IMG/VR virus record: IMGVR_UViG_3300025789_001553
Location: 18,477 to 82,476 of that record
Length of the DNA: 64,000 nucleotides
Reading direction: 5' to 3' (one strand)
DNA from: a virus
The position numbers and the translations under genes are program-made. Below the pieces are notes generated by a model. That model had not been told where the DNA came from and ran no database searches. It was given only the letters and a program-made list of their open reading frames with translations. Positions 3,664-57,614 of this stretch are shown piece by piece (within the stretch, counting starts at the first letter, position 1; each line of letters opens with the position of its first letter).

Positions 3664-4466
3664 TTAAAATATCTCACGAATCTCCTTTAAGTATGCTCGA
3701 GATCTCTCGTACATACAACGATTACTGCTACGCTTTAGTGCACCTCTTCGAAACTCACCCAGAATATTACAAGTTCTTTGAAGATAGTGTTAAAATGGGT
3801 AGACATGTCTTATTAGATAATTCTATCTTTGAATTAGGTGAATCTTTTAATCCTAAACGCTATGCTTATTGGATTCAAAGACTTAACCCTACAGAGTATA
3901 TCATACCAGACGTATTGGAGGATTGTAATGGTACAATTGAGTCTGCTAAGAAATGCTTATGGAGAGAATGGGACTTTGTTAACGATTCTAAAACTATCGG
4001 CGTGGTACAAGGTAAAACTTATGCTGAATTAGTTAAATGTTATGTAACTTTAGATCAAGAAATTGATGTAGATAAGTTAGCTATTTCATTTGACTATTCT
4101 TATTATCTCAAACTATTTCCGCACCCTAACAAATGGGTATCTTATATGATGGGTAGAGTAATGACTCTTAATCAATTAATGAATGATGGTATTATTAATA
4201 AAGATAAAACTCATCATTTATTAGGCTGTGCACACCCAAGAGAATTTAGTTTTTATCAAGGACCTGAATATAATTGGATTGAAACATTAGATACATCATC
4301 TCCTATTGTTCACGGTATTAAAAGAGTAAGATACTCTAATGCTATTGGTAACTGGAAAAAGGAGTCTACTAAGCTTGTAGATCTTTTAGATGTAATACCG
4401 GATGCAATGCAAGAAAAAATCATTGCAAATAATTTAATTGAGTTTAGAAACTACGTTAATGGATGA
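3660..4466 (+). CDS. dpdA: DpdA-like DNA guanine transglycosylase (TGT fold)
   Basis: Likely exchanges guanine in DNA for a 7-deazaguanine base, as phage DpdA enzymes do. The motif order follows the tRNA-guanine transglycosylase fold: LLDNSIFELG (D53, equivalent to the LDSGGFQ segment), IIPDVLEDC, GVVQGKTYAEL (Q117-G118, like GIVQG), LAISFDYS, LLGCAHPREF (like LMGVG) and IETLDTSSP, where D211 is a candidate nucleophile. At 268 residues it is shorter than bacterial tRNA TGT, as expected for DpdA. The zinc site of bacterial TGT is not obvious. It starts inside the polymerase stop codon and ends in an ATGA overlap with the next ORF; QueF and a formyltransferase follow. A tRNA-acting TGT is the main alternative, but the DNA polymerase context favours DNA. 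The DpdA subfamily was not determined. Confidence 0.72.
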   Translation: MIKISHESPLSMLEISRTYNDYCYALVHLFETHPEYYKFFEDSVKMGRHVLLDNSIFELGESFNPKRYAYWIQRLNPTEYIIPDVLEDCNGTIESAKKCLWREWDFVNDSKTIGVVQGKTYAELVKCYVTLDQEIDVDKLAISFDYSYYLKLFPHPNKWVSYMMGRVMTLNQLMNDGIINKDKTHHLLGCAHPREFSFYQGPEYNWIETLDTSSPIVHGIKRVRYSNAIGNWKKESTKLVDLLDVIPDAMQEKIIANNLIEFRNYVNG

Positions 4467-4693
4467 CAACGTTAGAAGCTATAACTAATTCCGTCCATGC
4501 TAATTATCCCCACCTCCTGGCAAATAATATTTCTATTAGGGATTATTGTTTTTGGGATTGTATTCGTAATTGTGAAATCCCTGTAAGAGAGTTAACCGAA
4601 GTTAAACCTTACCTAATAAAACACGGTATTATTGACTTTACACTTGTAATTTTCTTTAGTGATAATACAATAGGTTATCGCTTAAAAATATGA
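4463..4693 (+). CDS. Small hypothetical protein within the deazaguanine cassette
   Basis: A 76-residue protein I do not recognise. It overlaps the DpdA-like stop by ATGA and is itself followed by an ATGA overlap with the formyltransferase gene, so it is almost certainly translated with them. It contains two cysteines close together (CFWDCIRNC region, three Cys within about ten residues) and a C-terminal beta-rich stretch (FTLVIFFSDNTIGYRL). No catalytic motif or membrane segment is evident. Because of the tight coupling it may be an accessory factor for the modification enzymes, but that is inference only. Confidence 0.6.
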   Translation: MTTLEAITNSVHANYPHLLANNISIRDYCFWDCIRNCEIPVRELTEVKPYLIKHGIIDFTLVIFFSDNTIGYRLKI

Positions 4694-5268
4694 AACGTAC
4701 CCTAATATGGAAAACCTTTTTCTCTCAGAGCGGATCTGAGATATACGAGATATCTAAAAATATTGGTAGGTTTCCGGATGCAATCATAACTAATAAAAGC
4801 TTCGAAGACATGGATAAGATTAATCCTGATCTCTTAGAAAAGTGTTTTGATCGTTTTATTTTCTTACCTAAGAAACCAACAGTAGAAGAATATAGAGAAG
4901 CTATAAGGAACGCTGATATAATTACCCTTCACGGCTATCTTCGTATATTACCGCCACAGATCTGCGGTAGGTTCAAGATATACAACGGACATCCAGGTCT
5001 TATAACTAAGTTTCCTGAACTAAAAGGTAAAGACCCACAAGCTAAAGTATGGTATAAACATTTTGAAAAACCTTATAAACTACACGGGCACGTTATTCAC
5101 GAAGTTATACCAGAAGTAGATGCTGGTAGAGTGATATCCGAAAAAGAGTTCTTTAGTAACAATATCTATAACGAGTTTAACAGTTTAAACGAATATATTG
5201 GTAGACTACATAAATTAGCAATCGAAAATTGGGTTGGCTTTATGCGCAAAAGCCTATTAAATAAATAA
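4690..5268 (+). CDS. Formyltransferase, PurN-like fold; candidate dPreQ1 formyltransferase (DpdN-type)
   Basis: Expected to transfer a formyl group from 10-formyl-tetrahydrofolate to an amine. The formyltransferase catalytic trio is present: N99 and H101 in NGHPGL and D144 in EVDAGRVI, matching N106, H108 and D144 of E. coli PurN. The preceding LHGYLRILPP is like the MRILPP segment of PurN. Length 192 residues, close to PurN (212). It lies between a DpdA-like gene and queF with coupled starts. A role in forming 7-(formylamino)methyl-7-deazaguanine in DNA, as proposed for phage DpdN enzymes, fits better than purine synthesis, because no other purine gene is nearby. PurN (glycinamide ribonucleotide transformylase) remains possible, since some marine phages carry purN. 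Fold sure, substrate inferred. Confidence 0.75.
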   Translation: MKRTLIWKTFFSQSGSEIYEISKNIGRFPDAIITNKSFEDMDKINPDLLEKCFDRFIFLPKKPTVEEYREAIRNADIITLHGYLRILPPQICGRFKIYNGHPGLITKFPELKGKDPQAKVWYKHFEKPYKLHGHVIHEVIPEVDAGRVISEKEFFSNNIYNEFNSLNEYIGRLHKLAIENWVGFMRKSLLNK

Positions 5269-5271
5269 CTT

Positions 5272-5850
5272 ATGAGATCAAATTATAAAGCTGCAATCTG
5301 TGGTGCTCATTCACAAGGCAAAACTACTTTGGTTAAAGCTCTAAAAGAGAATGCTAATCTTACAAGTGATTATCATTTTAGTTTTAGAACTAATTTAACA
5401 AGAGGTTTAAAAGATCTTAATGTACCTATTAATGAAGGTGGTACCTCTTTAACTCAATATCTGGTAATGTCTCGTCATTTAGAGTATGGTTTAACTCCAG
5501 GTAACTGGATCTTAGATAGAGGTGCTTTAGATGGGATTGCATATACAACTTATTTTTATGAAAAAGGACAAGTACATAAAGATGTTTATCAAGCTGCTTT
5601 AGTTGTATACGAAGAAATGTTAAGGACTTATGATAAGATTTTTTATGTTGTACCTGAACTTAGTATCAAAGAAGACGGAGAAAGAAGTACAGGTAAAGAG
5701 TTTTTTGATGGTGTTGTAAATCAATTTGATTTTTATCTTAAACATCATTCAATGCCTGCTGATAAACTTGTTTATGTAATGGGATCATTAGAAGACAGAA
5801 CTAAAATTGTAATTGATAATATAAAGAAAGATTTTACCAATGAGTTATAA
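5272..5850 (+). CDS. P-loop kinase-like ATPase (NadR/AAA_28-type)
   Basis: A nucleotide-binding P-loop protein of unknown substrate. Walker A is GAHSQGKTTL at residues 10-19, with the GKT lysine at about residue 17; an ILDRGALDG motif (around residue 82) is like the DR segment of nucleoside and nucleotide kinases, and the middle region is helical. At 192 residues it is in the size range of deoxynucleoside kinases and NadR ribosylnicotinamide kinase domains. It starts 3 bases after the formyltransferase stop and overlaps queF by 11 bases, so it belongs to the same transcription unit. It could phosphorylate a nucleoside for the modification pathway, but DpdA works by base exchange and needs no such step, so the role is open. 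Confidence 0.65.
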   Translation: MRSNYKAAICGAHSQGKTTLVKALKENANLTSDYHFSFRTNLTRGLKDLNVPINEGGTSLTQYLVMSRHLEYGLTPGNWILDRGALDGIAYTTYFYEKGQVHKDVYQAALVVYEEMLRTYDKIFYVVPELSIKEDGERSTGKEFFDGVVNQFDFYLKHHSMPADKLVYVMGSLEDRTKIVIDNIKKDFTNEL

Positions 5851-19880: not shown

Positions 19881-19955
19881 GCGGGGTTAATTCAGTGGTA
19901 GAATATCTGCTTGCCAAGCAGGATGTCGGCGGTTCGAGCCCGCCACTCCGCTCCA
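19881..19955 (+). tRNA. tRNA-Gly (anticodon GCC)
   Basis: A full cloverleaf. The acceptor stem GCGGGGT pairs with ACTCCGC with one G-U, and the anticodon stem-loop CTGC-TTGCCAA-GCAG has anticodon GCC. The T-arm contains GGTTCGAGCC and the 3' CCA is encoded. It reads GGC/GGU glycine codons. Confidence 0.95.
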
Positions 19956-19964
19956 ATTCCTATT

Positions 19965-20189
19965 ATGAACAGTCACCTCATATCTTTATTAAAAGCTACT
20001 ACCTACAGAGTGTTAGGTAGTCTTGCAACATTTTTAATTAGCTACCTTTTAACAAAGCGTGCTGACCTGTCTTTAGGTATAGCGGGTATAGATTTTTTTG
20101 GTAAAATAGCATTATACTATTTACACGACAGAGTGTGGAGTGTAATACTCGCTAAAAAAACTAAAAAACCTAAAAAAGTAAAAGTTTAA
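19965..20189 (+). CDS. DUF2061-like small membrane protein
   Basis: A 74-residue protein with KATTYRVLGSLATFLISYLLT, GIAGIDFFGKIALYYLHDRVW and a lysine-rich tail, matching the DUF2061 family of small predicted membrane proteins. One or two transmembrane helices are expected. I chose ATG 19965, right after the tRNA, over an earlier start inside the tRNA gene. Its stop codon shares bases with the stop of the convergent gene on the minus strand. Molecular role unknown. Confidence 0.75.
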   Translation: MNSHLISLLKATTYRVLGSLATFLISYLLTKRADLSLGIAGIDFFGKIALYYLHDRVWSVILAKKTKKPKKVKV

Positions 20190-20599
20190 ATCTTTAAACT
20201 TTCAGGTTTGGTAGCACGAATATATACCTCGCCCCAAACTTCTAACTCCCCCATAAGAGCTTGAAACTCTTTTTGAGATAATTTATCTAAATTTGCTAAC
20301 TTAGCATAAACCTCTTCTGCCATTTTTTTATAGTGAGCATTTGCTTTATCGCAATCTTTATTAGGATCTTTTTCCATTTTCTCACATTCTGCATAAGGTT
20401 TAGCTTTAGCAGCAAAATGAATAGCTGTTAATGTAGCAAAACCACCCTTTTCTTTTGAACTATGTGCAATCTTAGCAGCTCCAGCAGCTCTTTTTTCTAA
20501 GAATTGCTTCAATGCTTCTTCTGTTTCGGGTTCAGGTTGAACACGTTTTTCAAGCATTAATTGATACTGTTCTGCTAAAACTTTAAGCTGGCTATTCAT
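20186..20599 (-). CDS. Hypothetical protein, 137 aa, with N-terminal LxxLAExY helix
   Basis: Not recognised. A Lys/Glu/Ala-rich helical protein. The N-terminus (MNSQLKVLAEQYQLM) is like those of two other proteins here (MPNVKLLAEKYNVV at 48452 and MPNELKLLSEKYTQI at 50096), which suggests a shared targeting or assembly peptide. Two cysteines (AECEKMEKDPNKDCDK) could form a metal or disulphide site. It overlaps the convergent DUF2061 gene by four bases and is divergent from the tmRNA. Possibly a head-internal protein; inference only. Confidence 0.6.
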   Translation of the reverse strand: MNSQLKVLAEQYQLMLEKRVQPEPETEEALKQFLEKRAAGAAKIAHSSKEKGGFATLTAIHFAAKAKPYAECEKMEKDPNKDCDKANAHYKKMAEEVYAKLANLDKLSQKEFQALMGELEVWGEVYIRATKPESLKI

Positions 20600-20643
20600 G
20601 GTAAATATATTATATTACTTATTGTTCTTTAACATATTTTAAT

Positions 20644-21026
20644 GGGCCTGTACCAGATTCGACTCTGTGGCAGATGTATTAGAAGCAAGCAGGATTAGTA
20701 AATCCTTTATAAATTACTACAAAAACAAACGGCATTATTCAAAGCCTCAAGAACGCAGTCGCTTCTGTAATGGATTCATTCAATACAAGCGAAAGCTTCG
20801 CACTCGCAGCTGCTTAAGCTCGATCGGTTGTAGTATAGATTCTCGCTATATATTATAACCGTCATTTAGCGAGACTGACTATTCAATGGTAGTAGAATAG
20901 CAGGAACACTACCAAACAACTTGTATATCAGCACTATGGATATACATTTTATTAATAGTGCTAAGCTTGTAGAAACTGATAAGAACGCTACGGAACACAG
21001 GGGTGCAACTCCCCTCAGGTCCACCA
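20644..21026 (+). ncRNA. ssrA: tmRNA (ssrA), one-piece
   Basis: Rescues stalled ribosomes by trans-translation. The 5' end GGGCCTG pairs with CAGGTCC at 21016-21022, giving a seven-bp acceptor stem followed by A and an encoded CCA (21024-21026). A T-arm (AGGGG-TGCAACT-CCCCT) precedes it. The tag reading frame begins near GCT at 20761, after CAGTC, which aligns with the TAGTC before the resume codon of E. coli tmRNA. It ends at TAA 20815-20817 and encodes ASVMDSFNTSESFALAAA. Both tRNA halves flank the tag, so it is the one-piece form. It opens an RNA cluster with three tRNAs downstream. The tag start is inferred from E. coli. Confidence 0.92.
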
Positions 21027-21030
21027 TTTT

Positions 21031-21146
21031 ACGGCTGTTAAGGTGACACTATAGGGATCAAGGATGTAAACTTTTTTCACCTTTCTGTTTACGGTATCAA
21101 CGAATTGGCACTCGAGCTTGCAACCTATAGCCGTTACATTTTTTTT
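21031..21146 (+). ncRNA. Candidate structured RNA with a pseudoknot
   Basis: Between tmRNA and tRNA-Tyr. ACGGCTG (21031-21037) can pair with TAGCCGT (21128-21134) as a seven-bp closing stem. Inside it, AAGGTGA (21040-21046) pairs with TCACCTT (21077-21083), and GTAAAC (21066-21071) with GTTTAC (21087-21092). The order A-B-A'-B' is an H-type pseudoknot. CTATAGG (21049-21055) could also pair with CCTATAG (21124-21130) as an alternative state. A T-run at 21139-21146 follows. No tRNA T-arm or CCA is present. Function unknown. Confidence 0.4.
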
Positions 21147-21231
21147 GGGTATATCGTATAGCGGCAATTACGGCAGACTGTAAATCTGCTGCCTCTCGGC
21201 TTCCTTGGTTCGAGTCCAAGTGTACCCACCA
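21147..21231 (+). tRNA. tRNA-Tyr (anticodon GTA)
   Basis: Acceptor GGGTATA / TGTACCC, anticodon stem-loop GCAGA-CTGTAAA-TCTGC (GTA), a long class II variable region as expected for bacterial tRNA-Tyr, T-arm CTTGG-TTCGAGT-CCAAG and encoded CCA. It directly follows a T-run. Confidence 0.94.
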
Positions 21232-21235
21232 TTTT

Positions 21236-21310
21236 ACGGACGTGGTATAACGGTCGTGCAACAGTCTCCAAAACTGTCTTATGAGGGTTCAACTCCTTCC
21301 GTCCGTGCCA
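21236..21310 (+). tRNA. tRNA-Trp (anticodon CCA)
   Basis: Acceptor ACGGACG / CGTCCGT, anticodon stem-loop CAGT-CTCCAAA-ACTG with anticodon CCA, T-arm with GGGTTCAACTCC and encoded 3' CCA. It lies four bases after tRNA-Tyr. Confidence 0.94.
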
Positions 21311-21317
21311 TTTTTTT

Positions 21318-21392
21318 GCCCCTATCGTCTAACGGTTAGGACATCGGATTTTCATTTCGCTAATCGCGGTTCGATTCCGCGTAGGGGTACCA
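21318..21392 (+). tRNA. tRNA-Glu (anticodon TTC)
   Basis: Acceptor GCCCCTA / TAGGGGT (first pair G-U), anticodon loop TTTTCAT with anticodon TTC, T-arm GCGG-TTCGATT-CCGC and encoded CCA. Alignment with E. coli tRNA-Glu shows one mismatch at the top of the anticodon stem (TCGGA against TTCGC). Confidence 0.9.
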
Positions 21393-25857: not shown

Positions 25858-26532
25858 TTAAAATTTCTTAACTATTGGGGACTTTATAAAGTTTGTCTCC
25901 CAATGATCTGTGGTAGGCGCAAAACCGTTTATATCTAAATCGCTTGGACTTTGTCTTTGTATTACCGATAACGGGTAAACCACGTATTTGTTGAGTTCGC
26001 CTCGCTCACCAAGCCATGTATCAACAGGACAATGAAAATGTGGATCATACTGTAAGAACATTTTTAGTCCTTTTCTGTTAAACCCTGTAGCATGATTAGC
26101 TAATATATGCTCACACTTAAGTAAATTTTCTGACACTTGTTGTACAGGATTATCAAACACATAGCAGCCTAAATAGATTGTATCCCAATCCGGAAAATTT
26201 TGTAATTGATCTAATGCATTCTCTATATTCTTTAATGAATTAGCATTATAAAATTGTGCATCATCTTCAAGTATTAAAAATCGTTCATAACCTTCTTTTT
26301 CTGCTTTTTTAAATATATTTGCAAATGTTTCACCACAATAATTGTGAACCATTCTCATGCCCTCTTCTGTAGTAGTATCTTTTACTATAGCTTTTGCATC
26401 TATACCAGGCACGCGCTCAAAAAAGCCTTGAAGGCCGGCATCTTTTACTTCCTTTTCAAATAAAGTTCTTCTATCTGCTCTACGATCAAGATTTATATAA
26501 TAACCTTTTTGAAAAAATTCATTAATTTTCAT
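25858..26532 (-). CDS. Glycosyltransferase family 25 protein, copy 3
   Basis: GT25 (LPS biosynthesis and collagen-galactosyltransferase type). It opens with the family start shared by all three copies, YYINLDRR, then RTLFEKEVKDAGLQGFFERVPGIDA, the motif ILEDDAQFY (metal-binding EDD) and DTIYLGCYV. Length 224 residues. Separated by one base from the next copy, so the three genes form one tandem block. Most divergent in the C-terminal half, which suggests different acceptors. Confidence 0.85.
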   Translation of the reverse strand: MKINEFFQKGYYINLDRRADRRTLFEKEVKDAGLQGFFERVPGIDAKAIVKDTTTEEGMRMVHNYCGETFANIFKKAEKEGYERFLILEDDAQFYNANSLKNIENALDQLQNFPDWDTIYLGCYVFDNPVQQVSENLLKCEHILANHATGFNRKGLKMFLQYDPHFHCPVDTWLGERGELNKYVVYPLSVIQRQSPSDLDINGFAPTTDHWETNFIKSPIVKKF

Positions 26533-26533
26533 A

Positions 26534-27229
26534 TTAAAACATTTTTACTAAACGAGGTTCAAGTAACTTGTATGCTTCTTCCCAGTGTGATAAGCCAGGC
26601 GCTCTACCAAACGCATCGATGTCACTCTCCCCGTCTTTTTGCACTACTGCCATCGGATAAACAAAATACTTGTTCATAAATTTTTGCTGACTCAACCACC
26701 CATCAAATATTGTTTGTAAAGTATGATCGTATCTTTTTAATAGTTTAGGTATAACCTTCTTGTTATAACCTATAGCGTGTGTTGTTAAGAGTATATCCGG
26801 TTTTAAAAGGTTTTCTGATACATGTTTTACTTTATCATCTACTACGTAACCACCGAAGTATACCATGTCCCAGTCTGGGAAATTTTGCAATTGATCCAAT
26901 GCTTTTTCTACTATCTGTAAAGCTGGTTCAGAACCGTTATTATAAAATAGCATATCATCTTCACATATTAATACACGTTCATGTGGTTGTTCGTTAATCT
27001 TTTTAAACAATTCGTATACCGTTTCACTAAATGCAGCACCTTTATGTACATGTGCTGGTTCATGCACGTACATTGGATACTCTCTTGTTAAGTAGTCAAT
27101 ACCTGCAAATCTTTCAAACCAACCGTCAAGGTTAATTTTTTTAGCTTCTTCTTCGAACCCCGCTCTACGCTCAGGACGACGATCAAGATTTATATAATAA
27201 CCCTTTTGAAAAAATTCATTAATTTTCAT
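26534..27229 (-). CDS. Glycosyltransferase family 25 protein, copy 2
   Basis: Second GT25 paralogue, 231 residues, beginning MKINEFFQKGYYINLDRR exactly like copy 3. Active-site segment LICEDDMLFY and WDMVYFGGYVVDD. The C-terminal SDIDAFGRAP segment is shared with copy 1 (SDIDAFGKSP). One base separates it from each neighbour. The near-identical 5' ends at DNA level and diverged remainders point to tandem duplication. Confidence 0.85.
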   Translation of the reverse strand: MKINEFFQKGYYINLDRRPERRAGFEEEAKKINLDGWFERFAGIDYLTREYPMYVHEPAHVHKGAAFSETVYELFKKINEQPHERVLICEDDMLFYNNGSEPALQIVEKALDQLQNFPDWDMVYFGGYVVDDKVKHVSENLLKPDILLTTHAIGYNKKVIPKLLKRYDHTLQTIFDGWLSQQKFMNKYFVYPMAVVQKDGESDIDAFGRAPGLSHWEEAYKLLEPRLVKMF

Positions 27230-27230
27230 A

Positions 27231-27914
27231 TTACGGTTTTATTATTTTAAATTTTGAATAGCAATCTAACCAATGCTTAATGTCCGGTGATTTACCGAAA
27301 GCATCAATATCGCTTTTACCTTCTCTTTGAGCTACTGCTAATGGATACACAATATACTTAATTATGTTCTTCCTGGCAGCTATCCACTCATCATATATAC
27401 AATCATGTCCAGGTACATATTGTAATAGTTTTTCAAATACTTTTTTATTATATCCAACTGCATGAGCAGTCAGTATATTATCTGCTTTAAGTAAATTTTC
27501 AGATACTTGTACACCGGGGCAATATTTTAAATAACCACCAAAATATATCATGTCCCAATCAGGAAAATTTTGTAATTGATCTAATGCTTTTTCAACTAAT
27601 TGTAAACCTGTTTCCTGTCCATCATTATAAAATAATATGTCATCTTCGTATATTAAAACTCTTTCATAACCGCTTTCATTCGCTTTTTTGTAAGCATTAT
27701 AAAAAGCTTCCCCACAAGCCATTCCTTTGTTTACATATGATGGTTGATTGATAGCATTAGGGTATTGACGGGTAGATACATCAATACCGGGTACACGTTC
27801 AAAAAAACCTTCAAGACCTATCTGTTTTACCTCTTGCTCAAATTGAGCTTTTCGATCTGTTCTGTAGTCTAAATTTATGTAATAACCTTTTTGAAAAAAA
27901 TCATTAATTTTCAT
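27231..27914 (-). CDS. Glycosyltransferase family 25 protein, copy 1
   Basis: First GT25 paralogue in transcription order, 227 residues, starting MKINDFFQKGYYINLDYR. Motifs LIYEDDILFY and WDMIYFGGY. It shares the IDAFGKSP segment with copy 2. GT25 enzymes add galactose in LPS, and eukaryotic members galactosylate collagen. Probable adjacent sugar supply comes from the UDP-galactopyranose mutase gene 2.5 kb upstream. Confidence 0.85.
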   Translation of the reverse strand: MKINDFFQKGYYINLDYRTDRKAQFEQEVKQIGLEGFFERVPGIDVSTRQYPNAINQPSYVNKGMACGEAFYNAYKKANESGYERVLIYEDDILFYNDGQETGLQLVEKALDQLQNFPDWDMIYFGGYLKYCPGVQVSENLLKADNILTAHAVGYNKKVFEKLLQYVPGHDCIYDEWIAARKNIIKYIVYPLAVAQREGKSDIDAFGKSPDIKHWLDCYSKFKIIKP

Positions 27915-47324: not shown

Positions 47325-48452
47325 TTACTTACGGAAGTGTTTGTTATTGATAATGTAAAATTCCTTAATAACGCTTTGTTCAGCTGCTACTTTTTGTGTA
47401 TTAGCAGGTGTAACCTGATTCATTATCTGACCCGCAGCAGGCTTTTTTCTTGCGTTATCGTTTTGAGCTTTTTCAATTTCAGCTAATTTATTCAGTGCAT
47501 AGTCAAGAATACCTTTACGGTCTCTGCTTTGTACTTTGCTGAGTTGTGCTGCTACAGCGTCTATAGCTTTTTTAGCATCCCCCACATTAACACGACCACT
47601 ACCTGCAGGTGCTGGTGCAGCAGGTGCTGCAGGTAGTGGTGCGGGTGCAGCTGCTGGAGCTGGAGTTGCAGAAGCTGTATTAGCTGTCGGTGCTGGTGCA
47701 TCTGCTGCAGGTGCTGTATTAGCAGCTGTTGCAGGTTTACCGGTTTGATTTAAATTCTTGTTTGTAATATCACCAGCTAAGCCAGTGTTTTGTTTTGCTC
47801 CTTGATAACCGTATTTAGCACCAGCTTTAAAGCTATGACCAAGTCCTTGTGCAGCACCACCAACAGCACCAACTGCTTGACCTAAGCCATTTGCAGTAGC
47901 GCCCGCAACTTGACCTACAGCTGCAGGTACATTAGCTAAACCATTAGCTAATTTAGTGCCATATTTCTGTATACCGCTTTTTAAATGTGAGCCTAATTGA
48001 CTAAGAAAACCAGGTTTCTTTTTTTGAGCTCCTGCTAAAGGGTATGTGGAATTTGCACCTGCAATATCAGAAGGATCCCCATTTGGGTTTACGTCTTCGT
48101 CTTCGAGTTTTTCTTCTTCTTTCTTTTTACCACGTGCAAAAGATTCAAATGCTAAGCAATAGTTTTTATCGCTTGTAGTATCTAAATGTTTTAAAACCTT
48201 TTCAATACACATTACTGTGAGTTTAATATCATTATCTTGCTCGTCTGCGTTTTCTTCTATAATTGAGCGACCACCTTGACGTGATTCTATAGCATGCTCA
48301 AAAGCCAAATATGTACTTTCAGGCAGTACCTGTGAAATAATATTAAACTCTTTTAAAATAGTCTCAGGAGAAGAACTCTCTACGAGTGATTCAATTGAAT
48401 TATTTTCTTGTACTACGTTATATTTTTCGGCTAAAAGCTTTACGTTTGGCAT
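47325..48452 (-). CDS. Ala/Pro-rich hypothetical virion protein, 375 aa
   Basis: Not recognised. N-terminus MPNVKLLAEKYNVV shares the LxxLxExY start with other proteins here. Then an acidic helical part, a KKKEEEKLEDED stretch, a Gly/Ala-rich amphipathic region (ANGLGQAVGAVGGAAQGLG) and a long Pro/Ala linker (nt about 47600-47720), ending in a basic helical domain. The composition suits an internal head protein or long flexible linker protein. Eight bases separate it from the nucleotidyltransferase gene. Confidence 0.6.
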   Translation of the reverse strand: MPNVKLLAEKYNVVQENNSIESLVESSSPETILKEFNIISQVLPESTYLAFEHAIESRQGGRSIIEENADEQDNDIKLTVMCIEKVLKHLDTTSDKNYCLAFESFARGKKKEEEKLEDEDVNPNGDPSDIAGANSTYPLAGAQKKKPGFLSQLGSHLKSGIQKYGTKLANGLANVPAAVGQVAGATANGLGQAVGAVGGAAQGLGHSFKAGAKYGYQGAKQNTGLAGDITNKNLNQTGKPATAANTAPAADAPAPTANTASATPAPAAAPAPLPAAPAAPAPAGSGRVNVGDAKKAIDAVAAQLSKVQSRDRKGILDYALNKLAEIEKAQNDNARKKPAAGQIMNQVTPANTQKVAAEQSVIKEFYIINNKHFRK

Positions 48453-48460
48453 AATGTATC

Positions 48461-49522
48461 TTAATACTTACGCAAATAGAACGTATTTCTCTGTGAATCA
48501 AATCCAATCTCTATATTACTTGTACTAAGCTTACGAGGATGACCGGATTTAATTTTATTTATATCCAATCCATAACGCATGATAATTTCATTAGCTTTAT
48601 TATGGGTTATCGGGCCAGCTCCAAATTCCTTCTTTTTAAGGTTATGTACTGGTACAGTATCGTCTTTCTTTTTCTTGTGCATTTGAGCTACTATACCAAT
48701 ATTTCTAATTTTATCAGAACCCAAGCTACCTAATTTACTCATACCCGCACCGAGTTGTTGATGGCGAGGACCTCGTTTATTAGTAATACCCATAAACGAT
48801 TTAAAATTCATTTCCTGTAAACGCTGTACACTATCTAATGATAATTTCTTATCTTTCTTTGCAAGTATACCTTGTACAAGTCTTTCCACGTCTCCTGATC
48901 TACGTAGTTTTTTGAAAGCAAGGTTTTCAGGTGAAAACTCTCCACCTTTGTCTAAACCAGCTTTTCTGAGTTCCATGAACTTTTCTTTAGCTTTTTCAGC
49001 ACATTCTACATCACATTCATCACTTAAAGCAAAATTAATCATATCTAACATCGCTTGTTTCTTTTTACCAACAAGTGAAAGATCTATTTCTGCTTTTTCT
49101 TTAGTTGCGTTTGGTTTCTTTAACCAATCATCGTTTTTAAGGGAATACACTCCAGTAGAATGGTGCGGTTCATTTATATCTTGTATATAAACCTCTACGT
49201 CATAACCTTTTATAGTAATATCACGTGTTGTGTTCCAAACTGTTTTTTTAGCATTAAAATAGTCTTTAAGTAATTCAGTCTCAACTTTATACTCAGTAAA
49301 ATCTGTGATAATGTGTAAATCAAAATCACTATACTTTGTGTAGTTAAAGTTTGCTAATGAACCAGTTAAAGTAATATCTTCAACATCAACTTCAATATCA
49401 ATTGTATCTAAAAATGCTTGAGCAATTTCCAGGAGCTTATCTTTAATTTCTGGCTTTAGCTTGCCATTTTCCCACAATTGCGGGTTAAGCTCATTATGAA
49501 ACTCAAACGTAAGGTTCTCCAT
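48461..49522 (-). CDS. Predicted nucleotidyltransferase-fold protein, 353 aa
   Basis: The motif LTGSLANFNYTKYSDFDLHIITDF (residues about 48-71) is the GS...DxD signature of the polymerase-beta nucleotidyltransferase fold. A third acidic residue probably lies in the YDVEVYIQD strand. The C-terminal 150 residues are basic and helical and may bind nucleic acid (KKKKDDTVPVHNLKKKEFG). It lies among virion genes, so it may be packaged, and could modify tRNA, RNA ends or a protein. Function unknown. Confidence 0.7.
   Translation of the reverse strand: MENLTFEFHNELNPQLWENGKLKPEIKDKLLEIAQAFLDTIDIEVDVEDITLTGSLANFNYTKYSDFDLHIITDFTEYKVETELLKDYFNAKKTVWNTTRDITIKGYDVEVYIQDINEPHHSTGVYSLKNDDWLKKPNATKEKAEIDLSLVGKKKQAMLDMINFALSDECDVECAEKAKEKFMELRKAGLDKGGEFSPENLAFKKLRRSGDVERLVQGILAKKDKKLSLDSVQRLQEMNFKSFMGITNKRGPRHQQLGAGMSKLGSLGSDKIRNIGIVAQMHKKKKDDTVPVHNLKKKEFGAGPITHNKANEIIMRYGLDINKIKSGHPRKLSTSNIEIGFDSQRNTFYLRKY
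48473..48480 (-). promoter_or_regulatory. Late-promoter-like TAAGTATT box
   Basis: Exact TAAGTATT on the minus strand, 20 bases before the start of the 375-residue protein gene, overlapping the 3' end of the upstream gene. Confidence 0.38.
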
Positions 49523-50042: not shown

Positions 50043-50076
50043 ACAGTTAATATAGTGTATTTTTGCTAATAATCCA

Positions 50077-50084
50077 TAAGTATT
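50077..50084 (+). promoter_or_regulatory. Late-promoter-like TAAGTATT box
   Basis: Exact TAAGTATT eleven bases before ATG 50096, at the divergent junction of the minus- and plus-strand late genes. Confidence 0.45.
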
Positions 50085-50095
50085 TAGTCTATAGT

Positions 50096-50485
50096 ATGCC
50101 TAACGAACTCAAACTGTTATCAGAAAAATATACTCAAATATTTAAAGAATATGATGCTTCGTGGTCAACCGGTGGTATGGGCGGAACAGCCTATGCAGGT
50201 AGCGAGCAAATGGCAGAAGATGAAGAAAGTGCATTAGACCCACTACAGCCAAGTACAGCTTTAAGTTCCCAACTCGTTGGTTTATTTGATCCGGTTACTT
50301 CTGAAGAAAAGAAACAAACCGACGAAGCTTTAAAAGAACTTGAAACAGTTTTAAATAAAATTACAAAAGATATAGAAAGCTGGCAACACAAATACACAAA
50401 GCTCGGGGCAACCGATACTGTTTCAAGAGAACAATTATTTCAATATATAGCTAAATCAGTTTTAGGTATAAAAAAATTAGACTGA
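50096..50485 (+). CDS. Hypothetical protein, 129 aa, LxxLxExY start
   Basis: Starts at ATG 50096, MPNELKLLSEKYTQIF, the second clear example of this N-terminal peptide; an upstream TTG at 50063 would add eleven residues but ignores the box and spacing. Middle is Gly/Ser-rich, C-terminus helical and acidic/basic mixed (KKQTDEALKELETVLNKITKDIESWQHKYTKLG). It directly precedes the ligase-like gene (1-base gap). Possibly an internal head protein. Confidence 0.6.
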   Translation: MPNELKLLSEKYTQIFKEYDASWSTGGMGGTAYAGSEQMAEDEESALDPLQPSTALSSQLVGLFDPVTSEEKKQTDEALKELETVLNKITKDIESWQHKYTKLGATDTVSREQLFQYIAKSVLGIKKLD

Positions 50486-50486
50486 T

Positions 50487-52130
50487 ATGTTTTCATTTAA
50501 ACAATTTTTTCTTTTAAATGAAGGTGGTGCTGGTGGACATATGCTACACCCGCTCAACTTACCTGAAATTAAAACAGGTAAAGAGCTTTTAGAATTATAT
50601 GAAAAGTCAGCTCATTATCTTGCACTAAAAGGTGCTCCGGTTAAAATTGATGGTACTAACGTTAGTGTGCGGTTAGTAGATACTGAACACGGTAAAGAGT
50701 TTGCTATCTACAGGGGCGCTAAAATAGACATGGAAGGACCTCCCGCTACACTCTCTTATTTAAATACCCGTTTTGCGGAAAACCCAGGTGCAATTAAATC
50801 ATACGAGCAGGTATTAAATATTTTTAACAAAGCCTTACCACAGACAACAAGAGAGCTGAAAGAGTTAGGCTTGTATAATGATCCAAATATTTTCTTTAAT
50901 ACTGAATTTGTAGCTGGTACTTCTAATATAATAGGGTACAATAATAAATTTTTAGCTATTCATTATCCTGCTAAAATTACAGAAAAGTTTAGCGCTAAAA
51001 AAGGTACAAAGAGTTATGGTAGTGAGCATTTACCTTTTAATGCTGATGTTTTAAATGCATATGCTAAAAAAGTTAATGCAGTAGCACAAGAATTTGGTTT
51101 TAATGTTATACATCAGTCTATAGCAAAAATGACTGGTAAGCCTAATTTTAATGCAGCGTTAAGTTCAGAATTAACTATTAATGGTAAAACTAAAACTTTA
51201 AAACAGTGGTTAAGTACAGCTGTTAATCCGGCTAACAAAGTAATTAAAAAATTGGGTGGTGCTAAACCAGTAGCTGGTATTAATCAGGCTCTGTATTTAG
51301 ATGTAGTACAAAACGGGGTTGATATTAACAGTATAGTTGCACCAGAAAGTTTACCGGTTGCTACAAATTGTATTGTATTTTGGCATGCAACAAGATTACT
51401 TGGTAAAGCTATACTTGATGCAATGGACTCAGATTTAGGTAAACCTTCTCAACAAGAAGGTGTTGTTATAAACAACCCAGCTGTATCAGCTTATCAATTT
51501 AAAATAACAGGCGACTTCTTTGTAAGAAACGCTGAAGCAAGCCCCTACAGAAAAGAACCTACTGGTCCTATTAAAACAGCTGTCATAACTTATGGTAGAT
51601 TTAATCCGCCAACTGTTGGACATCAAGCTTTGTTACAAACATTATCTCAAACTGGTGCACAAAATAAAGCTCAATTAACAGCTATATTTCCTTCTCATAC
51701 AATTAATAGAGACAACCCGTTACCTTTTGATCTTAAAGCACAGATATTACAAACTATATCCCCTAAGAACGTTCAAGTATTACCAGACGGTAAGACTCTA
51801 ATGGCAGTGCTTAGTTTCTTAAGTAAAAACGGATATAACAGGGTTATTCATATAGCTGGTTCAGATCGTTTACCTGAATATGAGCGTTTAATTAAACAAT
51901 ACGTAAATAAGCCAGATGCTCATGGAGATATTGCATACAATATACCAGACTACACGTTTGTAAGCTCTGGGGATAGAGATCCAGACGCTGAAGGTGTTAC
52001 TGGTATGAGTGCTTCTAAAGTAAGAGCAGCTGCTCGTGCTAATGATTATAAGTCTTTTAGTGCTGGTATAGCTCAAGGCTTACCCGAACAACTAAAGCAA
52101 TTAGTATTCAATACTATTAAAAATAGTTAA
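50487..52130 (+). CDS. RNA-ligase-like plus adenylyltransferase-like fusion protein
   Basis: A 547-residue two-part enzyme. N-terminal domain: KIDGTN (K53, ligase motif I), EFVAGTSNIIGYN, EGVVINN (motif IV) and YQFKITGDFFVRN (motif V) match covalent nucleotidyltransferase (RNA/DNA ligase or capping) signatures. C-terminal domain (from about residue 365): TYGRFNPPTVGHQALL is a nucleotidyl-transferase HIGH-type motif with the first His replaced by Thr, HIAGSDRLPEYERLI follows, and GMSASKVRAA is like the SSTxIR motif of NMN adenylyltransferase. The N-terminus FSFKQFFLLNEGG is like a head-targeting peptide. Substrate unknown; RNA repair linked to NAD or AMP chemistry is one guess. Confidence 0.75.
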   Translation: MFSFKQFFLLNEGGAGGHMLHPLNLPEIKTGKELLELYEKSAHYLALKGAPVKIDGTNVSVRLVDTEHGKEFAIYRGAKIDMEGPPATLSYLNTRFAENPGAIKSYEQVLNIFNKALPQTTRELKELGLYNDPNIFFNTEFVAGTSNIIGYNNKFLAIHYPAKITEKFSAKKGTKSYGSEHLPFNADVLNAYAKKVNAVAQEFGFNVIHQSIAKMTGKPNFNAALSSELTINGKTKTLKQWLSTAVNPANKVIKKLGGAKPVAGINQALYLDVVQNGVDINSIVAPESLPVATNCIVFWHATRLLGKAILDAMDSDLGKPSQQEGVVINNPAVSAYQFKITGDFFVRNAEASPYRKEPTGPIKTAVITYGRFNPPTVGHQALLQTLSQTGAQNKAQLTAIFPSHTINRDNPLPFDLKAQILQTISPKNVQVLPDGKTLMAVLSFLSKNGYNRVIHIAGSDRLPEYERLIKQYVNKPDAHGDIAYNIPDYTFVSSGDRDPDAEGVTGMSASKVRAAARANDYKSFSAGIAQGLPEQLKQLVFNTIKNS

Positions 52131-52205: not shown

Positions 52206-55200
52206 TTATTTGAATGTCGCGACTGAAGCTAATGCAAGGTAAGTCGAGCTACCTGTCTTCGTTAACGATACTGTGTATACGTCAACCGAATTTGCATTAC
52301 CTGAACTTGGAGCTGTACCACCCTGCCACTTTGGCGTTACTGCACTACCGTCAACTTGTAGAGCTGTCTGATAGTAAGGTGTATTGCCGTTAGTTGTAAG
52401 TAGCGCAATTGTAATTGTCTGACCTGTCGACATTATACTGTTTAGTGTAGTACCGCTGTTACCACGAATATTTAACGTCCAATTATTAGCATTACTATTT
52501 GTGTAGTATTGTATACCTTGTGTTAATACATCGAAGTTAGTTGTACTTGATGGAGCCGAAGCTGTGTTTGTTGTACCTTCAAGTACTGAGTTTTCAGTTA
52601 CATAACCTGTTGCTGTAATATTAGCAAACGTTACATTACTTGTAGTATTTAAGGTTTGGTTAGCGCCCGGGCCTGAATAACCGGACCAGCCAGATGTACC
52701 AGAGTAGCCTGAAGTACCGCTAAAGCCACTATAGCCTGATGTACCAGAATAACCTGATATACCAGAGTAGCCTGAAGTACCGCTAAAGCCTGAGATACCA
52801 CTGTAACCACTGAAGCCGCTTATACCGCTGTAACCAGACGTACCAGAGTAGCCTGAGGTACCGCTAAAGCCTGAGAAGCCAGATGTACCAGAGTAGCCTG
52901 AAGTACCGCTAAAGCCACTATAGCCTGATGTACCAGAATAACCTGATATACCAGAGTAGCCTGAAGTACCGCTAAAGCCTGAGATACCACTGTAACCACT
53001 GAAGCCGCTTATACCGCTGTAACCAGACGTACCAGAGTAGCCTGAAGTACCGCTAAAGCCACTATAGCCTGATGTACCAGAATAACCTGATATACCGCTA
53101 TAACCGCTAAAACCGGAAGTACCGCTAAAGCCTGAGTAACCAGATGTACCGCTGAAGCCACTAAAGCCTGATGTACCAGAATAACCTGAAGTACCGCTAA
53201 AGCCTGAGAAGCCAGAAGTACCAGAGTAGCCCGAAATACCAGAGTATCCCGAGAAGCCTGAATAACCAGATGTACCAGAATAACCCGAAGTGCCAATGCC
53301 AGAATAACCTGAGTAACCAGAAGCACCTGTAGCACCTTGACCGATTGGTGAACGTAATACTGAATAGTTAGTAGTACCGTTATATATGAATGTAGCAGAT
53401 ACTGACGACGAACTTGTTGAGTATGCGTAAACCTGTGTTAAGATTCTGTCTGCTGCATTTAGTGTTGTAATACTATTTGTAGCATAAGATACTTTTTGAT
53501 ATGTTGTAGTTGTATCTGTTACCGCACCAGAATCTGCACTTAATATTAATGTACCTGTACTGCTTGTTGCATTGACCCAAGTATATACTTGGAATACAAA
53601 GTTTGCTGAATTTGAATTTACTTTACGGAAAAATTCAATATCCCACAGACCTGCAGGTATTTCTGTTAGCCCAGGTTCACCAGCTGGTGTTAAATAACCA
53701 TCAATTAATACTGGGCTTGCAAGTGAGCTATTACCGGTAGATACTACAACAACGTCATCGTTTACTGAACCACCGCCTGGTTGTAATGTCAAACTTTCAT
53801 AAGATGTTTGATCACTATCTGTTTCATTGAAGAAGTATGTTCTACCGTATACCGATGCGCCTGTTTGACCAGACCAACCAGATGTACCAGAGTAGCCACT
53901 GATACCGCTAAAGCCACTAATACCAGAGAAGCCGCTAAAGCCTGAAGTACCGCTAAAGCCGCTAAAGCCTGATGTACCAGAATAACCTGATGTACCAGAG
54001 AAGCCTGAGAAGCCAGATGTACCACTATAACCGCTTATACCGGAATAACCGCTAAAGCCTGAGATACCGCTAAAGCCTGAGATACCGCTATAACCGCTTA
54101 TACCGCTAAAGCCTGATGTACCAGAATAACCTGATGTACCAGAGAAGCCTGAGAAGCCAGATGTACCAGAGTAACCTGATGTACCACTATAACCGCTAAA
54201 GCCGCTTATACCGCTAAAGCCTGAAGTACCAGAATAGCCTGAAATACCGCTAAAGCCTGATGTACCAGAATAACCTGATGTACCAGAGAAGCCTGAGAAG
54301 CCAGATGTACCAGAGTAACCTGATGTACCACTATAACCGCTAAAGCCGCTTATACCGCTAAAGCCTGAAGTACCAGAATAGCCTGAAATACCGCTAAAGC
54401 CTGATGTACCAGAATAACCTGATGTACCAGAGAAGCCTGAGAAGCCAGATGTACCAGAGTAACCTGATGTACCACTATAACCGCTAAAGCCTGAAGTACC
54501 AGAGTAGCCTGAAATACCAGACCAACCTGAGAAGCCGGAAGTACCGTCATTACCAGCAAATCCTTGTACGCCAGGATCACCTTGAGGACCACTATAGCCA
54601 CTGTAACCTGACCAACCGCTAATACCGCTATAGCCTGAGATACCACTATAACCGGACCAACCAGATATACCACTATAGCCACTTATACCAGAATACCCAC
54701 TTATACCAGAATAACCTGAAATACCGCTATAACCTGATATACCTATATATCCGCTATAACCTGAGATACCACTGTAACCGGAAATACCTGAATAACCACT
54801 GTACCCGCTTATACCACTATAACCAGAATAACCTGACGAAGCAGAAGCACCGTTAGCGCCAGAGTAACCAGAATAGCCTGAGTAGCCTTGCAAGTTTGCG
54901 CCACTCATTGAAATTGTACCTGTAACTTCGAAGTTACCGTCAAAGTGAATTGTGTTGCCTACTTGTGTTACTAAGCTATTACCAAGTGTTTGATTACTTG
55001 TCCATAATGCAAGGTAACCGCTTGTACCGTTGTTTGTAGAACCGATTTGAGTTGCTGGATATTCAACTACAACACCTGTTGAATCGCTTGTAGCGATTAA
55101 CATTGGCTTAATGAACGAGCCACTTAATGAAGGAGCTGTATCTGTTAATGCACCAGCTGTTTGATCAGATAGGTAATAACCGTAACCATCTGTTAAACCA

Positions 55201-57614
55201 GAGAGGTTTGAAATTTGACCGTTGTATACGATTGTAAACTGACTTCCTGTTGCGTCTTGTACGATACCAATTGCATCAACAGTAGAAATACTGTCTGCTT
55301 TTGCACGTAGGTACGAACCACTCTGATCTCTGTAAATTACAGTACCAGGTGTAAAGTCGTTTGAATATGGAATTGTTAATTGTAATGTTGCGTCAGCACC
55401 ACTGATACCAGACCAACCAGAGTAGCCTGAGTAACCAGAAATACCTGACCAACCGCTAATACCGGACCAGCCGCTATAGCCACTGATACCAGAGTAACCT
55501 GAAATACCAGACCAGCCAGAGTAACCGGAAATACCAGATATACCTGACCAACCGCTAATACCGCTAAAGCCGGACCAGCCACTTATGCCAGACCAACCGG
55601 ATATACCAGACCAGCCTGACCAACCTGAAATACCGGAGTAGCCAGAAGTACCGCTGAAGCCGCTAATGCCAGACCAGCCACTATAACCGCTAATACCTGA
55701 CCAACCAGACCAGCCTGAAATACCAGACCAGCCACTAAAGCCAGAAATGCCTGACCAACCTGAGGTACCGCTAAAGCCTGAAATACCAGACCAGCCAGAA
55801 ATACCTGACCAACCTGAAATACCAGAGTAGCCTGATGTACCAGAGAAGCCTGAAATACCAGACCAGCCGCTATAACCGCTAATACCAGACCAACCGGAGT
55901 AGCCAGAAATACCTGACCAACCGCTTATGCCAGACCAACCTGAGGTACCAGAGAAGCCTGAAATACCGCTCCAACCTGAAATACCGCTAAAGCCTGACCA
56001 ACCAGAAATACCGCTATAGCCAGATGTACCGCTAAAGCCCGATATACCGGAGTAGCCTGAGAAGCCACTAATACCGCTCCAGCCCGAAGTGCCAGAGAAA
56101 CCGCTAATACCAGACCAGCCAGAGATACCTGACCAACCTGAAATACCGGACCAGCCGCTATAACCAGACGTACCAGAGTAACCGCTGTAACCACTAATAC
56201 CAGAGAAGCCGCTAAAGCCTGATGTACCAGAATAGCCTGAAATACCGCTAAAGCCACTAATACCAGACCAGCCAGAAATACCGCTAAAGCCAGACCAGCC
56301 GCTAATACCTGACCAACCTGAAATACCGGACCAACCGGATATACCAGACCAACCAGAGAAGCCTGAGTCACCTTTTACTTGGCCAACGTTTGCCCATACA
56401 CCATTACCGTATACCCATAAATCGCCAGATGCTTCATCAATAACACCATTACCATTAACTGCGCTTGGGTAAGCTGTATTTAATGTTGTTTGAGGATCGA
56501 CTCCGACTGTAGGAACTGTACCAATAATAGTTACTGACGTACCATTTGTACCAGAGTAACCAGAGAAGCCTGAAATACCAGACCAACCTGAAATACCTGA
56601 CCAACCGGAGTAACCGCTAATACCGCTAAAGCCACTAATACCAGACCAGCCAGAAATACCTGACCAACCGCTTACGCCGCTATAACCAGAGAAGCCAGAA
56701 ATGCCTGACCAACCAGAGAAGCCTGAAATACCGCTAAAGCCTGAGAAGCCAGACGTACCACTGAAGCCTGAAATACCAGACCAGCCTGAGATACCACTCC
56801 AGCCACTAATACCAGACCAACCTGAAATACCGCTTACGCCAGACCAACCAGAGTAGCCTGAATAACCAGACCAACCAGAAATGCCTGACCAACCAGAGAA
56901 GCCTGAGGTACCAGAATAACCTGAAGTACCGCTAAAGCCTGAAATACCACTAAAGCCGCTAAAGCCTGATATACCAGACCAACCGGAAATACCAGAAATA
57001 CCAGACCAACCGGAAATACCGGACCAGCCTGACGTACCGCTGAAGCCAGAAATGCCTGACCAACCAGAGATACCACTAAAGCCTGAGAAGCCAGACGTAC
57101 CAGAATAACCCGAAATACCGCTCCAGCCTGATGTACCAGAATAACCGCTTATACCAGACCAGCCAGAAATACCTGACCAACCGCTTATGCCAGACCAACC
57201 AGAGATACCACTCCAGCCTGATGTACCGCTAAAGCCCGAAATACCGGACCAGCCTGAAATACCACTAAAGCCTGAGAAGCCAGATGTGCCTGAATAACCC
57301 GATTGTCCAGACCAACCTGAGAAGCCGCTGAAGCCAGAAATACCTGACCAACCAGACCAGCCTGAAATACCTGACCAACCAGAAATACCGCTCCAGCCTG
57401 AAAAGCCTGATGTACCGCTGTAACCAGATGTACCGCTAAAGCCAGATATACCGCTCCAGCCACTATAGCCAGAGATACCAGACCAGCCTGAGATACCAGA
57501 TACACCAGACCAGCCACTATAACCGGACACACCGGAACCAGAGTAACCAGAGAAACCTGATACACCGATTGGATTATAAACTGCAGAAAAAGCGCCTCGA
57601 TTGGGTAATGACAT
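52206..57614 (-). CDS. Giant collagen-like Gly-X-Ser repeat fibre protein, 1802 aa
   Basis: A very long, probably trimeric fibre protein. Most of it is a Gly-X-Ser tripeptide repeat (bases about 52680-57545), where X is Trp, Tyr, Phe, Ile, Thr or Val. The N-terminal half is Trp/Ile-rich and the C-terminal half Thr/Tyr/Phe-rich. Three folded inserts interrupt it: about 56365-56560 (GDLWVYGNGVWANVGQV), about 54890-55390 (beta domain with a close relative in the next gene) and about 53330-53860. A short true collagen-like patch (PQGDPGVQGFAGNDG) lies near 54560. The C-terminus (52206-52670) is a beta-rich tip. An exact TATAAATA box lies 23 bases upstream of the ATG. Likely a tail or whisker fibre binding the host; Ser, Thr and Tyr sites could be glycosylated. 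Confidence 0.82.
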   Translation of the reverse strand: MSLPNRGAFSAVYNPIGVSGFSGYSGSGVSGYSGWSGVSGISGWSGISGYSGWSGISGFSGTSGYSGTSGFSGWSGISGWSGISGWSGWSGISGFSGFSGWSGQSGYSGTSGFSGFSGISGWSGISGFSGTSGWSGISGWSGISGWSGISGWSGISGYSGTSGWSGISGYSGTSGFSGFSGISGWSGISGFSGTSGWSGISGWSGISGISGWSGISGFSGFSGISGFSGTSGYSGTSGFSGWSGISGWSGYSGYSGWSGVSGISGWSGISGWSGISGWSGISGFSGTSGFSGFSGISGFSGWSGISGFSGYSGVSGWSGISGWSGISGFSGISGYSGWSGISGWSGISGFSGYSGTNGTSVTIIGTVPTVGVDPQTTLNTAYPSAVNGNGVIDEASGDLWVYGNGVWANVGQVKGDSGFSGWSGISGWSGISGWSGISGWSGFSGISGWSGISGFSGISGYSGTSGFSGFSGISGYSGYSGTSGYSGWSGISGWSGISGWSGISGFSGTSGWSGISGFSGYSGISGFSGTSGYSGISGWSGFSGISGWSGISGFSGTSGWSGISGWSGISGYSGWSGISGYSGWSGISGFSGTSGYSGISGWSGISGWSGISGFSGTSGWSGISGFSGWSGISGWSGWSGISGYSGWSGISGFSGTSGYSGISGWSGWSGISGWSGISGWSGFSGISGWSGISGISGYSGWSGISGYSGISGYSGWSGISGWSGISGYSGYSGWSGISGADATLQLTIPYSNDFTPGTVIYRDQSGSYLRAKADSISTVDAIGIVQDATGSQFTIVYNGQISNLSGLTDGYGYYLSDQTAGALTDTAPSLSGSFIKPMLIATSDSTGVVVEYPATQIGSTNNGTSGYLALWTSNQTLGNSLVTQVGNTIHFDGNFEVTGTISMSGANLQGYSGYSGYSGANGASASSGYSGYSGISGYSGYSGISGYSGISGYSGYIGISGYSGISGYSGISGYSGISGYSGISGWSGYSGISGYSGISGWSGYSGYSGPQGDPGVQGFAGNDGTSGFSGWSGISGYSGTSGFSGYSGTSGYSGTSGFSGFSGTSGYSGTSGFSGISGYSGTSGFSGISGFSGYSGTSGYSGTSGFSGFSGTSGYSGTSGFSGISGYSGTSGFSGISGFSGYSGTSGYSGTSGFSGFSGTSGYSGTSGFSGISGYSGISGFSGISGFSGYSGISGYSGTSGFSGFSGTSGYSGTSGFSGFSGTSGFSGFSGISGFSGISGYSGTSGWSGQTGASVYGRTYFFNETDSDQTSYESLTLQPGGGSVNDDVVVVSTGNSSLASPVLIDGYLTPAGEPGLTEIPAGLWDIEFFRKVNSNSANFVFQVYTWVNATSSTGTLILSADSGAVTDTTTTYQKVSYATNSITTLNAADRILTQVYAYSTSSSSVSATFIYNGTTNYSVLRSPIGQGATGASGYSGYSGIGTSGYSGTSGYSGFSGYSGISGYSGTSGFSGFSGTSGYSGTSGFSGFSGTSGYSGFSGTSGFSGYSGISGYSGTSGYSGFSGTSGYSGTSGYSGISGFSGYSGISGFSGTSGYSGISGYSGTSGYSGFSGTSGYSGTSGFSGFSGTSGYSGTSGYSGISGFSGYSGISGFSGTSGYSGISGYSGTSGYSGFSGTSGYSGTSGWSGYSGPGANQTLNTTSNVTFANITATGYVTENSVLEGTTNTASAPSSTTNFDVLTQGIQYYTNSNANNWTLNIRGNSGTTLNSIMSTGQTITIALLTTNGNTPYYQTALQVDGSAVTPKWQGGTAPSSGNANSVDVYTVSLTKTGSSTYLALASVATFK
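52690..53046 (-). repeat. 189-base direct duplication inside the repeat tract
   Basis: A segment of about 168 bases beginning CCAGATGTACCAGAGTAGCC at 52690 recurs essentially unchanged from 52879, an offset of 189 bases (63 codons, 21 tripeptides). It shows a recent in-frame duplication. Confidence 0.8.
54115..54546 (-). repeat. Three copies of a 144-base unit
   Basis: GATGTACCAGAATAACCTGA recurs at 54115, 54259 and 54403, each 144 bases apart (48 codons, 16 tripeptides), with nearly identical intervening sequence. The third copy diverges near its end. Confidence 0.82.

Follow-up and report, generated by a model that had tools for sequence, protein, structure and literature searches.

Why a T4-like phage should carry, within a single polypeptide, a domain resembling RNA ligases and a nucleotidyltransferase of the HIGH superfamily is the question raised by the locus considered here. 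The window, that is the whole stretch of 64,000 nucleotides analysed, is part of an 82,476-bp IMG/VR virus record (IMGVR_UViG_3300025789_001553, positions 18,477 to 82,476), which is itself a fragment. A preliminary description had proposed a fusion of a ligase with a nucleotidyltransferase, and the fusion is real: an intact open reading frame of 547 aa occupies the positions originally given, and both halves possess the expected motifs.

A two-gene unit among late genes

50487..52130, plus strand: ligase-like and HIGH nucleotidyltransferase fusion, 547 aa (ORF, profile, alignment and AlphaFold evidence)
50096..50485, plus strand: upstream gene, first residues MPNELKLLSEKY; the true start is likely internal to ORF 50063-50485
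48461..49522, minus strand: Pol-beta nucleotidyltransferase (phrog_36119, PF01909; profile matches), an associated partner

The fusion gene and the gene upstream of it, separated by a gap of 1 bp, form a two-gene unit on the plus strand with minus-strand genes on both sides, and the upstream gene is kept in 11/11 close-relative loci. The placement among late genes suggested at the outset holds, given that tail sheath, tail tube, terminase and large glycine/serine-rich tail-fibre-like proteins of a T4-like phage are encoded nearby. No T4-type late promoter (TATAAATA) was found upstream of the unit, this motif showing no enrichment in the window, and PADLOC returned no defence match for the 547-aa protein. 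Elsewhere the window encodes a 1802-aa fibre-like protein made up mostly of SG(Y/F/W/I/T)SG repeats (52206-57614, minus strand), three clearly related glycosyltransferase-like genes in tandem (25858-27914, minus strand; MKINxFFQKGYYINLD...) and four tRNA genes for Gly, Tyr, Trp and Glu (19881-21392, plus strand).

An N-terminal domain with invariant ligase motifs

50523..51536, plus strand: RNA-ligase-like domain, residues 13-350 (alignments, AlphaFold pLDDT 89, Foldseek)
50643..50654, plus strand: ligase motif I, K53-I-D-G (K, D and G invariant in 50/50 non-redundant relatives)
50904..50906, plus strand: motif III-like Glu, E140 (NTEFV; invariant 50/50)
51456..51467, plus strand: motif IV, E324-G-V-V (E and G invariant 50/50)
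51501..51515, plus strand: motif V-like K339-I-T-G-D, with Thr at the second-Lys position (K339, T341 and G342 invariant 50/50)

The ligase motifs I, IV and V first read in this half are present as K53-I-D-G, with a candidate nucleophilic lysine, E324-G325-V-V and F-K339-I-T, and the motif III glutamate is likewise in place. Across 50 non-redundant members of the family K53, D55, G56, E140, N147, Y151, H159, E324, G325, K339, T341 and G342 are invariant. Seven of these are catalytic-motif residues (K53, D55, G56, E140, E324, G325 and K339), and their conservation in relatives, on which the preliminary description had made its proposal depend, is far above chance. Such strict conservation in diverse relatives argues against a mainly structural or assembly protein of the head with decayed enzyme domains, an extremely improbable reading which draws on the late-gene setting and on the position of a related cyanophage gene pair close to a gene with a head-protein annotation.

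The second basic residue of motif V (KxK/R) is absent, 50/50 members having K339-x-T341, and Pfam RNA_ligase (PF09414, Rnl2-like) matches neither the window protein nor anything else in its record; the single PF09414 match among 19 related records is a separate gene. For these two reasons the ligase half is not assigned to Rnl1 or Rnl2, and no curated model recognises the family of residues 13-350. The annotated phage collection yielded a single, weak match to this half, protein WWT39297 of Microcystis phage Mel-JY01, in which both domains are present in the order opposite to that of the window. A search of IMG/VR starting from this protein returned 304 relatives, a later alignment search recovered distant relatives with the domain order of the window, and hhalign shows the ligase-like domains of the two arrangements, window-type and reverse-type, to be clear homologues (1.5e-19). 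When PDB chains were searched by sequence, neither the single protein nor two profiles retrieved anything beyond chance matches. Because a genome scan using one restrictive pattern matched only 3 contigs, the best of them apparently phage DNA inside a MAG, the family looks phage-borne.

With an alignment of 26 sequences the ligase half was well modelled by AlphaFold in the full protein, and a ligase-only model reached a mean pLDDT of 89. When the latter was compared with the PDB by Foldseek, RNA ligases (at one rank a putative ATP-dependent ligase) occupied ranks 1, 2, 4-9, 11-14, 16 and 18, T4 Rnl2, T4 Rnl1 and archaeal, trypanosome and Naegleria enzymes among them, at scores that are weak throughout (E at least 0.04, the best being 0.04; TM-scores about 0.2-0.3), and the best match of the full model was trypanosome RNA editing ligase 1. 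Against T4 Rnl2 and T4 DNA ligase, profile comparisons ranged from weak to nil, the Rnl2 score being marginal (P about 0.009). The Foldseek matches and the invariant KxDG, Glu, EG and Lys motifs together make an RNA-ligase-like fold likely for this half, and the modelling that had been recommended for both halves predicts a ligase-like and a Rossmann-type fold.

Motif I is in register with that of T4 Rnl2 (KIDGTN here, KIHGTN in the T4 enzyme), and the E, EG and K motifs as well as, at weak E-values, the fold neighbours are common to the window protein and ATP-dependent RNA ligases including T4 Rnl2, whereas the K-x-T motif V, the lack of a Pfam RNA_ligase match, a large helical insert between the motifs and the GGxGGHMxHP lead, a unique feature at the start of the domain, set the family apart. 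The missing second lysine, the unique lead and the silence of the Pfam model would suit a covalent nucleotidyltransferase with a host protein or a small molecule as the target of its modification, instead of an enzyme that seals RNA; this is unlikely, however, as the fold neighbours are mostly RNA ligases and the kinase, Pol-beta and RNA-binding domains linked to the module, described below, fit RNA repair.

A C-terminal nucleotidyltransferase of the HIGH superfamily

51570..52124, plus strand: HIGH-superfamily nucleotidyltransferase domain, residues 362-546 (phrog_3041 2e-38, phrog_395 4.5e-29)
51594..51623, plus strand: GRFNPPTVGH motif, residues 370-379 (sequence; variants across the family)
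52008..52025, plus strand: SASKVR motif, residues 508-513 (aligns with SATDMR/SASKMR of relatives)

The Rossmann-type nucleotidyltransferase proposed for the C-terminal half is borne out by matches of residues ~357-546 to PHROG cytidyltransferase families (phrog_3041, 2e-38; phrog_395, 4.5e-29; phrog_455, 4.7e-13), and 520 phage records, mainly of cyanophages, contain matches to this half. The (H/T)xGH and SxSKxR-type signatures of the Rossmann-like domain are present (TVGH, 376-379; SASKVR, 508-513), as had been noted from the start; the His-to-Thr replacement singled out at that time is ordinary variation, since the first residue of the HIGH motif is Thr in many cyanophage relatives (PPT-x-GH) and is replaced by His in fused relatives that are more distant (PPH-x-GH). 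The identities of the two domains, ligase-like and HIGH nucleotidyltransferase, are very probably correct.

Pfam and NCBIfam yielded only a sub-threshold CTP_transf_like/cyt_tran_rel signal and no match reached the NMN adenylyltransferase equivalog cut-off, while the best scores of the reverse-order nucleotidyltransferases were with NadM-type NMN adenylyltransferases (4.9e-8, below cut-off). Our best guess for the substrate is a mononucleotide, NMN being converted to NAD+. Phage NadM/NadR-type NMN adenylyltransferases (PMC9503650) also belong to the HIGH superfamily, and reverse-order relatives have a GRFQPFHKGH-type motif, but the partner in the present family is a ligase-like domain, not Nudix or a P-loop kinase, and its scores lie below the NMNAT cut-offs.

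Recurrent pairing in aquatic T4-like phages

The combination of both functions in one protein had been thought unusual, a view that the comparison does not support, as the pairing is recurrent, with the two domains paired or fused in hundreds of contigs of aquatic T4-like phages. The search for similar fusions in other phages, advised earlier, found both orders: same-order fusions in diverse marine contigs among L101-L113, and reverse-order fusions inside late proteins of 600-1640 aa, one of them encoded directly upstream of terminase and portal; in L102 the domains are separate, closely spaced genes. In cyanophages, one pelagiphage and one methylophage, a ~400-aa 'hypothetical' protein with the motifs HLEHLED, KWDG, QGDL, PEG(Y/F)V and K(L/F)V is encoded immediately or closely upstream of the nucleotidyltransferase. 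Among the 78 IMG/VR genes of this cyanophage type, 61 have a downstream nucleotidyltransferase, mostly directly adjacent, and 3 more are fused. This HLEH group is linked to the GHM group, to which the window protein belongs, by the order of the motifs and by a profile comparison of marginal score (P about 0.005).

The same module pairing is seen in phrog_455 (PHROGs, unknown function) and in the cyanophage T4-GC190 cytidyltransferase together with the hypothetical gene that lies upstream of it. The phrog_455 profile spans both parts of the module: cyanophage ligase-like proteins match its positions 19-341, with values down to about 1e-148, and the nucleotidyltransferase corresponds to positions 419-598; the ligase half of the window is too diverged to match its N-terminal half. 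In the S-PM2 reference (L189, NC_006820, around 3025-4804) a ligase-like/nucleotidyltransferase fusion is split over two reading frames, to be compared with an intact fused ORF of ~590 aa in three IMG/VR contigs (L230, L239, L241). Two candidate ligase-like partners in cyanophages were discarded, namely S-PM2p143 and the virion-detected S-SZBM1_139, the latter being ruled out by sequence, with _141 as the partner in that phage. No description of such a fusion was found in the literature searched, which covered subscription journals only in part.

A capsid-targeting-like leader and virion evidence

50487..50522, plus strand: capsid-targeting-like leader MFSFKQFFLLNE, residues 1-12, with a gp21-type (L/I)xE site, LNE/GG, at its end (disorder, family statistics, T4 ipIII comparison)

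The head-targeting-like start remarked on in the preliminary description ends at this gp21-type site. Residues 1-16 are predicted to be disordered (pLDDT <50), and LNE stands directly before the conserved GG that marks the exact start of the ligase-like domain. In 78 distinct 10-residue upstream contexts of the family, E is found at -1 in 75/78 and L/I at -3 in 77/78, position -2 being free, and this (L/I)xE pattern is that of T4 gp21 cleavage, as exemplified by the sites ITE-6 and LTE-619 of T4 Alt (PMC5694885). Capsid targeting in T4 depends mainly on residues 4 and 7 (PMC9026906), and both positions are aromatic in the window leader and in T4 ipIII (N-terminus MKTYQEFIAE). Since several same-order relatives are devoid of the leader and start with Met exactly at GG, it does not belong to the fold. 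A short N-terminal leader ending in (L/I)xE is thus common to the window protein, T4 internal proteins and Alt, although the cargo here is a two-enzyme fusion and the function of its leader is a prediction. Leaders also occur on cyanophage nucleotidyltransferases (for example MKSFLQFISEAE), and a gp21-family protease is encoded in 6/12 related records, including G002, the record of a close relative.

Homologous nucleotidyltransferases have been reported in purified virions of S-SM1 (PMC3037559), S-CREM2 (PMC10665884) and S-SZBM1 (PMC9146016), and an NMNAT-annotated protein in S-SCSM1 virions (PMC9602691); the detections concern homologues of the nucleotidyltransferase half only and the authors allow for lysate carry-over. 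In S-SZBM1 the virion-detected nucleotidyltransferase has the leader MRFRQFIIEA, while its ligase-like neighbour _141 is leaderless and goes unmentioned among the virion proteins (PMC9146016), a single case, in the direction predicted by leader-dependent packaging. The module is probably packaged in the phage head, and the window protein itself would be packaged likewise; the early suggestion that it may be injected gains support from the gp21-type cleavage consensus and the virion proteomes of relatives. Presumed packaging and injection, together with the ligase-like fold, could also mean that the fusion repairs or protects the ends of injected phage DNA, but this is highly improbable, the fold matches being RNA ligases and not typical DNA ligases.

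Other N-termini recur as well. The sequence MKLLLENWRKxLxE, likely a second capsid-targeting sequence, is common to unrelated proteins in L101-L113 (cyclic phosphodiesterase, HAD-like and others), and an LK(L/V)L(A/S)E(K/Q)Y-like start, which may be a further type of leader in the window phage, is shared by the products of 47325-48452 (minus strand), 50096-50485 (plus strand) and 20186-20599 (minus strand).

Associated domains and proposed function

The Pol-beta nucleotidyltransferase gene lies 1 kb from the fusion gene and is present in 11/11 close-relative loci; in L086/L089 a domain of its family (41% identity, 4e-51) is part of the fusion itself, with the nucleotidyltransferase on one side and the ligase-like domain on the other, and in L112 and S-CRM01 the family adjoins related genes. 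The reverse-order giants also contain PNK/Zeta-like kinase and poly(A)-polymerase RNA-binding domains, and in L101 and L109 the MKLLLENWRKxLxE leader precedes HAD-like proteins and a cyclic phosphodiesterase of the tRNA-ligase type, the phosphodiesterase gene being found in only 2/19 related records. Two giant late proteins show additions to the module, a zinc-protease domain in L086 (1450-5058) and a poly(A)-polymerase RNA-binding domain in L083 (1-4239). Two AAA_28 P-loop kinases were also observed (window 5272-5850, plus strand; L178 3235-3945, minus strand). AAA_28 is a Pfam family that we take to be associated with NadR ribosylnicotinamide kinase; the two proteins gave no match to NadR models, and they could feed an NMN adenylyltransferase if they are ribosylnicotinamide kinases. 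This genomic context gives some weight to both RNA repair and NAD handling.

The explanation that we favour, with a probability of roughly one half for the chain as a whole, is that of a head-packaged, injected RNA-end-repair enzyme with an NMN-adenylyltransferase-like partner. The leader would direct the fusion protein to the prohead core, a gp21-type protease would cut after LNE to leave a ligase-like domain starting GGAGGHM, and the fusion would enter the host together with the phage DNA at infection. There, the ligase half may become adenylylated on Lys53 (a Lys53-AMP adduct) and join RNA ends that bear 5'-phosphate and 3'-OH groups, such as those of tRNAs cut by host anticodon nucleases, while the HIGH nucleotidyltransferase would most likely adenylylate a mononucleotide, at best guess NMN to NAD+, and the presumed role on injection would be the repair of damage from host defences. 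The RNA-repair component is supported by partners of a repair type that are encoded nearby or within the same polypeptide (PNK/Zeta-like kinase, Pol-beta, RNA-binding domain and cyclic phosphodiesterase). Counted against the favoured explanation are the weak Foldseek E-values, the marginal Rnl2 profile score, the K-x-T motif V, the scarcity of the phosphodiesterase (2/19 records), the leaderless same-order fusions and the fact that S-SZBM1 _141 goes unmentioned in virions.

Alternatively, the protein might primarily be an injected NAD+-restoring enzyme that makes NAD+ from NMN against NAD-depleting defences, with the ligase-like half in a secondary role on NAD-linked or adenylylated substrates. 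The NadM-type best score of the reverse-order relatives, the NMNAT-like proteins carried in cyanophage virions and the two AAA_28 kinases counted for this phage point in this direction, yet it is rather doubtful, as no match came up to the NMNAT cut-off, the AAA_28 proteins match no NadR model and the invariant ligase active site would be left unexplained. It is also conceivable, if improbable, that a single RNA end is processed by both halves in turn: the nucleotidyltransferase would make or remove a NAD-like (dinucleotide) 5' end or supply an adenylyl group, after which the ligase-like half would join the product to RNA or another acceptor; if true, this would be an injected device for editing or capping RNA ends, of an undescribed kind.

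Significance

The ligase-like family is large and unnamed, forms a stable pair with an NMNAT-like enzyme and is widespread in abundant marine and freshwater T4-like phages, where both proteins of the module are currently annotated as 'hypothetical' or 'cytidyltransferase' only. The reverse-order giants, if packaged, suggest polyproteins that the head protease would cut into separate enzymes. If the module is packaged as its leader suggests, RNA repair or NAD restoration would be delivered at the time of DNA entry, ahead of phage gene expression, and this would provide a direct and testable reason for the presence of the nucleotidyltransferase in cyanophage virions.
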